64,000 nucleotides of DNA, from assembly GCA_023145435.1 (NCBI GenBank), contig JAGLDS010000006.1:35900-99899 (forward strand), written 5' to 3'. How positions within the stretch are numbered: the stretch's first letter is position 1; every line of letters begins with the position of its first letter. The position numbers and the translations under genes are program-made. The DNA comes from Clostridiales bacterium (GTDB taxonomy: Bacteria > Bacillota > Clostridia > DUPQ01). Positions 41,685 to 64,000 of the stretch are shown in pieces. The notes under the pieces are model-generated. The model did no database searches and was not told where the DNA came from. It saw only the letters and a program-made list of their open reading frames with translations.

Positions 41685-43682
41685 ATGAGTAAAAATGAAA
41701 ATAATAATTATATTAATGTTAAAAAGAAAAAAGGGAATATTATAAATATAATATTTATTTTGATTAGTGTGTTTTTTGTAATTACATTATTTTTATTAAA
41801 CCAATATGTTTCAGCTACAACTTGGAAATTAATTGAATATATTACTATTGTATTATTATATGTTTTAGCTGTTGTTTTTCTTTTTCTACTTAAAAATATG
41901 AACAAAAACCGTAAATTAATAAATGACGAAAAACAAACATACCAAGCGTTACTAAATGAAATGCAACAAGGATTAGCACTTCACGAAATAATAACTGATG
42001 AGAATAATAAGCCAATTGATTATCGTTATTTAGGGGTAAACCCTAAATTTGAAAGTATGCTAGGAATAAGAGCAGAAGAGATTATTGGAAAAACGGTATT
42101 AGAAGTTTTTCCAGCAACTGAAAAAATATGGATTACTGAATATGGAGAAGTTGCATTAACAGGAAAAGCTAAAAAAGTAAAAAATTACTTTTCTACTACT
42201 AATAAATATTATGAAGTGTATGCTTATAGTCCAAGGATTGGACAATTTGCTACGCTTATCTATGATGTAACGGATTCAAAGGTAGCTGCTAAGCAATTAT
42301 ATGAAGAAAAAGCATTGCTAAAAACAACATTGATTTCAGTTGGTGATGGTGTTATTACAACAGATAGATATCAACGTATTACATTAATAAATAAAGTAGC
42401 TCAATTACTAACAGGTTATTCACTAAAAGAAGCTAAAGGAAAGTTACTACTTGAAGTCTTCCAACCAATTACTGAAACAACAAAAGTATGCTGTAAAGAT
42501 AAAATTAGAAATATTTACTCAAAAGGTCAACCCCATGAATTTACAGAAAACATTTTACTTGTTTCAAAAAATGGGATTGAATTTCCAATTGAAGGGATTA
42601 TAACACCAATAAAAGAAAGTAGTGGTGTAATTAATGGGGCTGTAGTAGTTTTTAGAGATTATTCAGAACGTAAAGAAAAACAAGATAAAATTGAATATTT
42701 AAGTTTTCATGATAAGTTAACAGGATTATATAATCGTAGATTTTTTGATGAAGAATGTCTACGATTAGATACTAAAAGAAATTATCCTTTATCAGTTGTT
42801 ATGGCTGATGTTAATGGGTTAAAATTACTAAATGATGCATATGGTCATGTAAGTGGAGACGAATTGCTTATTACTTTTGCTACAATTCTAAAAGAACATA
42901 TGAGAGCTGATGATATTGTTAGTAGAGTAGGTGGAGATGAGTTTGTTCTTTTATTGCCAAGTACAAAAGAAGAAGAAGCTAATGAAATTATTAACAGAAT
43001 AAAAGAGAAACTTAGTACTAAGAGAATATGTAATATTCCAATATCCGTAGCTTTTGGTTGCCACACAAAAACAGAAGAAAAAACAGAATTTTCCATGATT
43101 TATCAACAAGCAGAAATTAATATGTATAAAAATAAATTAAAAGAAAGTGAAAGCTTAAAAAAAGAAGTAGTAGGGGAAATAATAAAAGAACTTCATAATA
43201 AGTTTCCTAAAGAAAAAGCACACTCAAAAGAGGTAGCCACATTGTGTGAAAAATTTGGTAAAGTATTAGAATTAAATGAAACAGAAATTAATAAGCTATA
43301 TCAATTAGGGTATTATCATAATATTGGTAACATTAGTAACTTAAATAATTCACTATCTAAAAAAACTAAAACCAATAAAGAGTTATATACAGAAACCGCA
43401 TATCAAATTTTACGATCAGTTAATGAATATGCTGATATTTCAAATATTGTTTTACAGCATAATGAAAGATGGGATGGTCTTGGATTGCCAAGGGGACTAT
43501 ACAAAGAAAAAATCACTATACAAGCTAGAATTCTAGCAATTGTTAATGCATATAATAATATGATTATTGGTAAAGGAATTAAGCAACTATCAAAAGAAAA
43601 AGCTTTACTCCAAATACATAAAGATAGCAAGACGTTGTATGATCCAACCTTAGTAGATATTTTTATTAATAAGGTGATATAA
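41685..43682 (+). CDS. PAS-PAS-GGDEF protein with degenerate HD-GYP-like end
   Basis: A 665-residue membrane signalling protein. Two transmembrane helices lie at about residues 18-40 and 47-68. PAS domains follow at about 80-200 and 210-330. The GGDEF domain (about 335-490) has an intact RVGGDEFVLLLP active site, and an RxxD inhibitory site (RADD) five residues before it, so it should make cyclic-di-GMP and be product-inhibited. The last 165 residues resemble HD-GYP, but key ligands are changed: YHNIGN instead of HDIGK and QHNERWDG instead of HHERWDG. That half is probably inactive and sensory or structural. Confidence 0.88.
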   Translation: MSKNENNNYINVKKKKGNIINIIFILISVFFVITLFLLNQYVSATTWKLIEYITIVLLYVLAVVFLFLLKNMNKNRKLINDEKQTYQALLNEMQQGLALHEIITDENNKPIDYRYLGVNPKFESMLGIRAEEIIGKTVLEVFPATEKIWITEYGEVALTGKAKKVKNYFSTTNKYYEVYAYSPRIGQFATLIYDVTDSKVAAKQLYEEKALLKTTLISVGDGVITTDRYQRITLINKVAQLLTGYSLKEAKGKLLLEVFQPITETTKVCCKDKIRNIYSKGQPHEFTENILLVSKNGIEFPIEGIITPIKESSGVINGAVVVFRDYSERKEKQDKIEYLSFHDKLTGLYNRRFFDEECLRLDTKRNYPLSVVMADVNGLKLLNDAYGHVSGDELLITFATILKEHMRADDIVSRVGGDEFVLLLPSTKEEEANEIINRIKEKLSTKRICNIPISVAFGCHTKTEEKTEFSMIYQQAEINMYKNKLKESESLKKEVVGEIIKELHNKFPKEKAHSKEVATLCEKFGKVLELNETEINKLYQLGYYHNIGNISNLNNSLSKKTKTNKELYTETAYQILRSVNEYADISNIVLQHNERWDGLGLPRGLYKEKITIQARILAIVNAYNNMIIGKGIKQLSKEKALLQIHKDSKTLYDPTLVDIFINKVI

Positions 43683-43714: not shown

Positions 43715-43743
43715 TTGATATTTATTTAACCATTTGCTATGAT
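43715..43743 (+). promoter_or_regulatory. Promoter of the ECF S-component gene
   Basis: TTGATA (43715-43720), a 17-base spacer and TATGAT (43738-43743). Transcription from about 43750 would give a leader of about 97 bases that holds two hairpins. Confidence 0.65.
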
Positions 43744-43751
43744 AAAAAAAG

Positions 43752-43832
43752 CTGATATTCACATAAGTGAAGTCAGACTATAAATATATTACTCAATTAT
43801 ATAAATCGAGCGGTATCCACATAGTGGAACTG
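43752..43832 (+). promoter_or_regulatory. Tandem hairpin leader, possible riboswitch
   Basis: Two similar hairpins sit between the promoter and the ribosome binding site. The first is CTGA-(ta)-TTCAC-ataa-GTGAA-(g)-TCAG at 43752-43776. The second is CGGT-(at)-CCAC-ata-GTGG-(a)-ACTG at 43811-43832. Each is a two-part stem with an internal bulge and a short ATA loop. The second ends a few bases before ACGGAGGT, so it could control ribosome access. I do not recognise a riboswitch class with certainty. Confidence 0.5.
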
Positions 43833-43846
43833 AAACGGAGGTAATT

Positions 43847-44626
43847 ATGGAAAGAGTATCAACAAAAACCAGAAAAATGGTATTATCAGCAATTTTAAGT
43901 GGAATTATTATAGTTTTAGGTGTTACCCAGATAGGGTTTATTCCTATTGGCCCAATTAGAGCTACTATTTTGCATATTCCAGTTATTATAGGGGCTATTT
44001 TTGGCGGACCAATTGTGGGAGCAGTAGTAGGATTGTCTTTTGGTGTTATGTCTTTTTTACAAGCGCCAACAGATCCAACATTTGCACCAATTTGGGCTAT
44101 TGGGGGTTTAAGAGAAATTTTGTTAATTGGAGTAACAGCTATTGTACCTAGAGTATTAATTGGTATTGTAAGTGCTTATGTATTTAAATTAATAAAAAAA
44201 ACCAGCAAGAAAACAGCTACTATTATATTTTTGATTATTCAAGTAGCAGCGTTTGGATTTACTATTTATAACCTAATTAAAAACATTCAACAAGGAGAGG
44301 CTTACTGGGCATACATATTAATTGCCATTGCTATTTTAATTTTGGTCTTTGTAGTTTTTAAGAATGTTGGTAAATATAATATGCAAGTTGTTATGTCTAC
44401 TATAGCTGGAACATTAACAAATACTATTTTGTTTATATTCCTAGCATATAACTTTTTTAAGTATGATTTTGCAATAGCTTTTAATTTAGATGTACAAACT
44501 ATTAAAAATTTATGGCTTACAGCTGGTGTAACAAACGGATTACCAGAATTATTAGTATCTATTGTTTTAATTAACTATATTGCCATTGGGTTATTTGCTA
44601 TACAAAAAGGAAAAACCCTAGAATAG
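43847..44626 (+). CDS. ECF transporter S component
   Basis: A 259-residue membrane protein with about six hydrophobic segments. The start (TRKMVLSAILSGIIIVLGVTQIGFIPIGPIRATILHIPVIIGAIFGGPIVGAVVG) is typical of the S components that bind vitamins or cofactors for energy-coupling factor transporters, resembling the pantothenate/folate-type group. The A, A' and T subunits are not in the window and are probably shared. The ligand is not assignable from this sequence. The gene stands alone between a structured leader and a terminator. The ribosome binding site ACGGAGGT is strong. Confidence 0.8.
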   Translation: MERVSTKTRKMVLSAILSGIIIVLGVTQIGFIPIGPIRATILHIPVIIGAIFGGPIVGAVVGLSFGVMSFLQAPTDPTFAPIWAIGGLREILLIGVTAIVPRVLIGIVSAYVFKLIKKTSKKTATIIFLIIQVAAFGFTIYNLIKNIQQGEAYWAYILIAIAILILVFVVFKNVGKYNMQVVMSTIAGTLTNTILFIFLAYNFFKYDFAIAFNLDVQTIKNLWLTAGVTNGLPELLVSIVLINYIAIGLFAIQKGKTLE

Positions 44627-44768: not shown

Positions 44769-45569
44769 ATGTTAACAAATGTTGTTGCAGGTATTATTAC
44801 CAAGGAAGAAAAAGTATATATATTTAAAAGGCGTGATAAGTCTTATAATGGGCTATATGAATTTCCAGGAGGAAAAGTAGAAAATAACGAATCGTTTTCA
44901 CAAGCACTTAAGCGAGAATTATATGAAGAATTAGCTATTAAAACAGGTGACACTACTCATGTTTTAACATCTAAAAACGAGAAAATTTTTCTACATGTAT
45001 TTATTGTAAATGACTATGAAGGATCAATTACTTTATTAGAACATAATAATTTAAAACTAGTTAACCAAGATGAAATATATAATTACCCATTAATAAAAAT
45101 TGATAAAAAAGTCATTACTTTATGTTTTAAAGATGAATATCTAATTATGGATACACCTTTTGGTAATTTAAAAATAACAGGTAATTGTATTAATATAACA
45201 TCAATTACCTTTACAGATGAACCTTTAAAAATAACAACAAATTTTCAATTACTAGAAGCTAGAAAACAATTAAATGAATATTTTATAAAAAAAAGATCTA
45301 TATTTAAATTACCTTTGTTTATAAGAGGAACAATTTTTCAAAGAAAAATTTGGGATGAAACCTTAAAAATTGCATATGGTCACACAAAAACTTATGGAGA
45401 ATTAGCATCTGGAGCACAAGCTGTAGGTAATGCATTAGGTAGTAACAAATTTGTAATTGTTATACCTTGCCATAGAGTGGTAGCTAAAAATAACATTGGT
45501 GGTTATAACGGAGGAGTAAAAAGAAAAATAAAGTTATTAGAGCTAGAAAGTAGTTATATCCATCCTTGA
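44769..45569 (+). CDS. MutT-type NUDIX fused to O6-alkylguanine-DNA alkyltransferase
   Basis: A 266-residue two-domain protein. Residues 1-120 are a MutT-like NUDIX domain with start NVVAGIITKEEKVYIFKRR and a full box GGKVENNESFSQALKRELYEELAIKTG. Residues of about 125-266 are an Ogt/MGMT protein: a degenerate N-terminal part (MDTPFGNLKITGN), then FQRKIWDETLKIAYGHTKTYGELA and the active-site cysteine in IPCHRVVAKNNIGGYNGG. MutT removes 8-oxo-dGTP from the nucleotide pool; Ogt removes alkyl groups from guanine in DNA. The frame is continuous, so this is a true fusion. No clear ribosome binding site is seen. The 3' end overlaps the next convergent gene. Confidence 0.88.
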   Translation: MLTNVVAGIITKEEKVYIFKRRDKSYNGLYEFPGGKVENNESFSQALKRELYEELAIKTGDTTHVLTSKNEKIFLHVFIVNDYEGSITLLEHNNLKLVNQDEIYNYPLIKIDKKVITLCFKDEYLIMDTPFGNLKITGNCINITSITFTDEPLKITTNFQLLEARKQLNEYFIKKRSIFKLPLFIRGTIFQRKIWDETLKIAYGHTKTYGELASGAQAVGNALGSNKFVIVIPCHRVVAKNNIGGYNGGVKRKIKLLELESSYIHP

Positions 45570-63061: not shown

Positions 63062-63104
63062 CTGTGTACGGGAAATTGAATTTACATTATAAAATAACTG
63101 TATA

Positions 63105-63170
63105 AAGGCAAACTTGTTGTAAAGCAAGGACGCAAAGCTTGGAATCCTTAAAAGGATAGTTCGGCTACTA
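63105..63170 (+). promoter_or_regulatory. Cyclic-di-GMP-I (GEMM) riboswitch
   Basis: The core AAGGCAAACTTG..GTAAAGCAAGGACGCAAAGCTTGG matches the GEMM pattern: GGCAAAC, a capped stem (CTTG/CAAG), then GGACGCAAAGC, the conserved block that binds cyclic-di-GMP. A second stem follows (ATCC-TTAAA-GGAT) and then AGTTCGGCTAC closes the aptamer. Its 3' end overlaps the 5' arm of the terminator, so the two structures exclude each other. That suggests ligand binding would favour read-through, but the sign of the switch is inference. Confidence 0.88.
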
Positions 63171-63194
63171 CGAAAACTTCTAGTAGCTTTTTTT
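63164..63194 (+). terminator. Riboswitch-linked terminator
   Basis: GCTACTA-CGAAAACTTC-TAGTAGC followed by seven T residues. The 5' arm overlaps the end of the cyclic-di-GMP aptamer, as expected for transcriptional control of the downstream secreted-protein gene. Confidence 0.85.
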
Positions 63195-63383: not shown

Positions 63384-64000
63384 ATGAAAAAATTATTTGC
63401 AATCCTCTTAGTAATTACACTTCTAATGGGAGTAATGTCAGGAGTAGTATTAGCAGAGGAAGTAGAAGATTGTGCAGCTGCACCAGCTGTAGCTAATCAG
63501 ATTTTAAAAAGTTTTGATATTGAAAGTAGATATGCCAATGGAGATTATAAAAAAGATAGACCACTCTATAGTAATTATATATCAGAAGTAGCCCACGAGA
63601 TGGGGGATGAAGAGGTGTTTCCAGCTTACGAATGTGATGGTACATGGGATGGTATTACATATGTAGAAAAGTGTGATGTAGAAGCTTATTATAGAGCAGT
63701 ATATAATTATTTGAGATTTTTAGGAGCTAACATTCCTATTAACCCTTCAATGCTTGGTAGCTGGGTTTGGAGTTATGCCAATCTATTAATGGTAATTGAT
63801 ACTCAAAGGGATGGAGAGTTTTCTGGTCTAGTTGGAAGGGATGAAAATAACTTCGCTGGATATGTTGAAGGTACGGTTGATGGAAATTCAATTACTTTCA
63901 CTTATACTAGAGGTGACTATGCTAGTAACGATGATTATTATCTAATCTTTACAGGAGTATTTGAAGATTGTAATACAATTACAGGTACATGGATTCACGG
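63384..64000 (+). CDS. Secreted protein under riboswitch control (partial)
   Basis: This gene runs off the window, so the ORF track omits it. It starts with an AAAGGA ribosome binding site and a clear signal peptide (MKKLFAILLVITLLMGVMSG, cleavage after VVLA). The visible mature part begins EEVEDCAAAPAV and contains a tryptophan-rich stretch (LGSWVWSYANLL). A later part with alternating strands (GEFSGLVGRDENNFAGYVEG and FTGVFEDCNTITGTWIHG) resembles a small beta-barrel. Four cysteines are visible. No family is recognisable. Cyclic-di-GMP control suggests an adhesion, surface or biofilm-switch role, by analogy with other clostridial riboswitch targets. Confidence 0.85.
   Translation, partial: MKKLFAILLVITLLMGVMSGVVLAEEVEDCAAAPAVANQILKSFDIESRYANGDYKKDRPLYSNYISEVAHEMGDEEVFPAYECDGTWDGITYVEKCDVEAYYRAVYNYLRFLGANIPINPSMLGSWVWSYANLLMVIDTQRDGEFSGLVGRDENNFAGYVEGTVDGNSITFTYTRGDYASNDDYYLIFTGVFEDCNTITGTWIH

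Follow-up and report, generated by a model that had tools for sequence, protein, structure and literature searches.

In a Clostridiales bacterium, the leader of a gene for an ECF transporter S component is best regarded, with the support of covariance models and of related leaders, as a diverged variant (subtype) of the known pan cis-regulatory RNA that is linked to the pantothenate transporter gene panT, and not as a wholly new element. The pan motif, a stem broken by a pair of conserved bulged As and as a rule found in tandem, was described in leaders of pantothenate genes, namely ahead of panB, panC and the aspartate decarboxylase gene panD (Weinberg et al. 2010, PMC2864571). The variant lies in a stretch of 64,000 nt, here called the window (GCA_023145435.1, contig JAGLDS010000006.1, positions 35,900-99,899 of the forward strand), between a GGDEF/HD-domain gene and the S-component gene, and its twin hairpins occupy the entire leader (Table 1). 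Taken as a whole, the locus is probably explained best by a pan-variant leader on whose hairpins a feedback sensor acts, so that panT is controlled at its Shine-Dalgarno (SD) sequence.

Table 1 Features of the panT leader (positions in the window)
Feature	Position	Strand	Details
Promoter	43715..43743	+	-35 TTGATA 43715-43720, 17-nt spacer, -10 TATGAT 43738-43743
pan hairpin 1 (HP1)	43750..43779	+	Outer pairs A43750-U43779 and G43751-C43778; middle helix 43752-43756 with 43772-43776; inner helix 43758-43762 with 43767-43771; loop AUAA; diagnostic bulged As 43757 and 43777 with a 5-bp helix between
Linker HP1-HP2	43780..43806	+	A+T-rich, without terminator
pan hairpin 2 (HP2)	43807..43837	+	Outer pairs C43807-G43837 and G43808-C43836; internal loop 43809-43810 against 43833-43835, with unpaired A43833-A43835 on the 3' side; middle helix 43811-43814 with 43829-43832 (four pairs plus mismatch); bulged A43815; inner helix 43816-43820 with 43824-43828; loop AUA
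Shine-Dalgarno GGAGG	43837..43841	+	Joined to the foot of HP2
panT, ECF transporter S component for pantothenate (predicted), 259 aa	43847..44626	+	PF12822; 4RFS match; pan-panT-coaX operons in relatives

Both hairpins follow a common plan: from the loop outwards come the inner helix, a bulged A in the 5' strand, the middle helix, an unpaired A in the 3' strand and finally a short outer stem. Separated by 27 nt, they form a tandem pair as in pan RNA, with which they also share the stem interrupted by conserved bulged As (A43757/A43777; A43815 and the A43833 region) and a covarying secondary structure that is conserved among relatives. Folding of the 106-nt leader gives a z-score of -2.9, with 1 of 200 shuffles folding equally well; the individual values are -3.6 for HP1 and -2.0 for HP2. 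An earlier, sequence-only reading of this DNA had proposed a good promoter, two hairpins of the same plan with the second next to the ribosome binding site, and an ECF S component downstream, and all of these stand. The promoter is sigma-70-like, matches 10 of 12 consensus positions and has a TG ahead of the -10 box; an 88%-identical relative has the identical promoter at the identical place, and the promoter pattern scan by itself was not above chance (8 found vs. 7.1 expected). Transcription is predicted to start at about 43750, the beginning of HP1, about 97 nt from the start codon at 43847, and G43837 is both the final paired base of HP2 and the first base of the SD. The interval given in that reading, 43752-43832, covered the hairpins but lost their outer pairs. 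Its shared CACATA(A)GTG core is ruled out as the conserved element, since HP1 of the two closest relatives has UUCAUGUAAAUGAA and UUUUUAUAAA at this position.

Three further observations concern the surroundings of the leader. A PAS-GGDEF-HD protein is encoded at 41685-43682. Directly downstream of panT, the ORF at 44769-45569 is a fusion of a MutT-like NUDIX domain and an O6-methylguanine-DNA methyltransferase domain with an intact IPCHRV motif. Finally, a c-di-GMP-I riboswitch (63097-63172, 58.6 bits) lies ahead of an ORF at 63384 that has a signal-peptide-like start.

A search with the Rfam covariance models returned nothing at the locus at the gathering threshold. With relaxed thresholds the top match was RF01749 (pan), which runs over its full length at 43749-43841 with 23.0 bits and has the bulged As of the window in register with the model. 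Because this is below the RF01749 gathering score of 36.2 bits and fails curated inclusion, the leader is assigned as a diverged variant and not as an RF01749 hit. Orthologous leaders from the same family, both directly upstream of panT, reach 38.6 bits (G006, which passes) and 32.6 bits (G007). Several other matches were rejected: low-threshold snoRNA, frameshift-site and Zeta-pan hits at the locus are weak, far under their cut-offs and of the wrong biology, and RF01749 matches in G002 (21.4 bits) and G009 (18.8 bits) are due to chance, being neither in front of panT nor present on cmscan of the loci. The family link was then drawn with a second model, R2, built from 37 leaders with the window and its family left out. 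R2 has a single match in the 64-kb window (43738-43848, 60.8 bits, E about 2e-11), and on 31 biosynthesis-type pan loci it lands on the classical sites in most (best scores 40.5, 38.4, 37.4 and 37.4 bits). As one model matches both the window and classical pan RNAs, panT-type and classical pan are best grouped in a single family. The sequence-only reading had left open whether the hairpins were pan or a new element; the former is borne out by the top Rfam match, the orthologues that pass or come near the cut-off and R2, and the latter gives way to a diverged variant of a known one.

In all three genera, panT orthologues have the element in their leaders, directly ahead of the ribosome binding site (one of them, G001, with one hairpin only), and HP1 varies between close relatives via compensating changes. 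In an alignment of 49 leaders, 93% of the cells are paired and 14 of the 20 pairs have changed on both sides, which is the covariation whose absence would have told against the sequence-only reading. The covariation score is 0.427; shuffled alignments give 0.228, and slid structures no more than 0.121. The diagnostic columns have A in 49/49, 49/49, 49/49 and 47/48 ungapped rows, and base identity near the bulges is conserved beyond pairing. Judging from the aligned leaders, what is conserved is the overall plan with its bulged As plus the surrounding GGUAUC/GAACY bases. A structure-guided search before other S components, for which the earlier reading had called, gave a similar picture in a named collection of 80 panT loci, mostly from Tissierellia and Clostridium: a descriptor with a 5-bp helix between bulged As finds a hairpin at the ribosome binding site in 46/80 leaders vs. 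22/800 shuffles, and tandem hairpins in 35/80 vs. 3/800.

The S component matches PF12822 with 78.8 bits (cut-off 30.7), and its sole PDB match is 4RFS (E 7e-10), the structure of L. brevis PanT (PMC7755397). NCBIfam has no model for it, so its identity is based on Pfam, 4RFS and gene context, which support PanT, a pantothenate transporter, with transport itself predicted. Within the order, panT orthologues are present in 9 of 11 genomes, coaX (the type III pantothenate kinase gene) in all 11 and panB in none of the 11, of which several are incomplete, including the window's own (69%). Given coaX throughout and no panB, these bacteria appear unable to make pantothenate and should depend on its import. 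By hand count, 18 of 52 pan-positive genomes have a pan-panT-coaX operon with coaX just downstream of panT. All 56 pan-positive genomes tested for CoaX as a trans-acting partner have coaX; this presence test, which has little power without a base rate, is compatible with such a role.

How common is this RNA? Only 4 of 20 sampled panT leaders reach the RF01749 gathering score. A model designated R1 matches 77 of the 80 named panT leaders, 48 of those 77 having been used to train it, and in a class sample of 291 genomes it finds 82 (E <=0.01) vs. 39 for RF01749, 36 of these over the cut-off. A second R1 match in the window's own genome (G000:C5, E 0.046) is inside an ORF and was discarded. The element is found in other classes of the phylum too, and by these matches the panT-type pan RNA is widespread across Bacillota. 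A PanT ORF is directly downstream in 73 of 84 inspected panT-model matches. Among the remainder, L215 is a single hairpin ahead of a coaX-panT operon (L215:1-260, G179), L157 and L214 have a panT that the script did not call (ORF cut off or other frame chosen), L212 is a panB-type match, and L143, inside a gene, is a false positive. L208 and L214 group with L215 in having a single pan-like hairpin, an SD and a coaX-panT operon; in many other genomes coaX comes after panT behind the same kind of leader. Six loci (L142, L208, L209, L210, L211 and L215) have apparently kept only the SD-proximal hairpin. Since some relatives make do with one hairpin, the tandem arrangement is not strictly required.

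At the other six of the 84 matches, five from genus g28 (L041, L043, L047, L163 and L206) and one from G025 (L190), panT-type hairpins and an SD are followed by an ORF of 8-12 codons and then by a gene for an OPT-family (PF03169) transporter. A convincing PanT was not found in the genomes of these six loci, nor panB in G025, which is 99% complete, making the OPT-family transporter a candidate importer of pantothenate or a precursor.

The two pan subtypes differ in layout. RF01749 matches in the class sample precede genes for DUF2520/Rossmann proteins, panB, panC or ECF S components. Biosynthesis-type elements lie a median 126 nt ahead of the ORF, an approximate distance as some of their start sites were estimated automatically, and a terminator-like hairpin follows the element in 11 of 31 biosynthesis leaders vs. 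0 of 80 panT leaders (last 100 nt). The panT-type HP2, CGACYGGUAUCC...GGAACYRGA(R)CG, runs directly into the SD, whereas the classical HP2 is CUGCUYUGAGCC...GGACCGAGACAG. With HP2 fused to the SD and no terminator, translation control is likely for the panT type. Judged by layout, many synthesis operons may be regulated by attenuation, and uptake at the level of translation. As a separate observation, the commonest first gene of biosynthesis-type loci (L016, L026, L037 and others) encodes a Rossmann/DUF2520 (PF10727/PF10728) protein; in L017 and L051 this gene is followed by panB, and its product is a candidate alternative ketopantoate reductase.

Under the mechanism that we propose, plentiful pantothenate or CoA would lead a sensor, which may be an RNA-binding protein dimer or, perhaps, a metabolite of the CoA pathway, to bind both bulged hairpins. 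Bound HP2 would then keep the ribosome from the adjoining SD, and PanT synthesis would fall. When CoA is short, the hairpins would be free and the SD open, and uptake would go up. Biosynthesis-type pan RNAs would respond to the same sensor, often via a downstream transcription terminator. Occlusion of the SD is suggested by geometry, with just one or two SD bases within the stem; the mean unpaired probability of the SD is predicted to be about 0.5 over 73 leaders without a sensor. Feedback logic would predict that plenty represses panT. As to the nature of the sensor, a protein is somewhat favoured over a metabolite, given how simple each hairpin is and that leaders with a single hairpin exist.

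The alternative closest to this proposal is a direct riboswitch, in which the paired hairpins bind pantothenate, a phosphorylated intermediate or CoA, thereby stabilising HP2 against the SD. The associated genes are nearly confined to one pathway (panB, panC, panT and coaX), base identity around the bulges is kept beyond pairing, and CoA figures in a 2022 review among the cofactors for which no riboswitch is known (PMC9971707), all of which would fit. However, the units are simple hairpins in which few unpaired bases are conserved, the discoverers of pan judged the motif to be more like a dimeric protein-binding site (PMC2864571), and single-hairpin leaders occur (L142, L208-L211 and L215), and we consider a direct riboswitch unlikely. 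The literature that we found names no ligand for pan RNA. The more general idea, that pan RNAs sense CoA or some metabolite of the pantothenate pathway directly, forming a minimal twin-hairpin riboswitch that can work through the SD for uptake and through terminators for biosynthesis, is rather doubtful.

Readings without any sensor fare worse than the feedback-controlled leader. Hairpins that begin at the predicted transcription start and finish at the SD could constitute a constitutive 5' stabiliser or translation enhancer, but a generic stabiliser would not be expected to have invariant bulged As, a 5-bp spacing and an almost exclusive association with pantothenate/CoA genes, which makes this very improbable. 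Chance resemblance in A+T-rich sequence might be entertained from the window by itself, which is under the Rfam cut-off; the covariation over 49 leaders, the match of 77 of 80 named panT leaders, the excess of descriptor and tandem hits over shuffles and the 60.8 bits of R2 refute it, leaving it virtually no credence.

In our literature search, which did not extend to subscription journals and so leaves prior notice possible, pan was met only in its 2010 description and in transcriptome lists, none of which joins it to panT; the genes that it is described with there are biosynthesis genes only. A 2019 reconstruction of vitamin pathways in gut bacteria used TPP, FMN, THF and B12 riboswitches and names no pan element, and in that study known B5 transporters account for only 75% of B5 auxotrophs (PMC6593275). 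According to the present data, one orphan RNA element stands before genes for making vitamin B5 as well as for importing it, apparently with a different switch for each, and the standard Rfam model overlooks about four in five panT cases. The leader also provides a compact construct of ~97 nt for testing what pan, an orphan described in 2010, senses. The panT-type pan can also serve to trace pantothenate importers not yet recognised, and its first lead is an OPT-family transporter in genomes that lack PanT.

Compared with known systems, the window element is like RF01749 pan in its bulged-A stem, tandem arrangement and position in a pantothenate-gene leader, and covariance models of the two recognise each other both ways; it differs in preceding the transporter gene panT and not a biosynthesis gene. 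The protein matches the S component of ECF-PanT 4RFS and sits in a panB-less order, but has 259 aa compared to the 203-residue chain, with an extra segment mid-alignment relative to shorter PanTs. The TPP, FMN, THF and cobalamin riboswitch families, which occur before other ECF S components, have no match at the locus in Rfam, and in place of their multi-helix aptamers the window has small twin hairpins. What the window leader has in common with these riboswitches is the logic, in which a structured leader controls a vitamin uptake gene.
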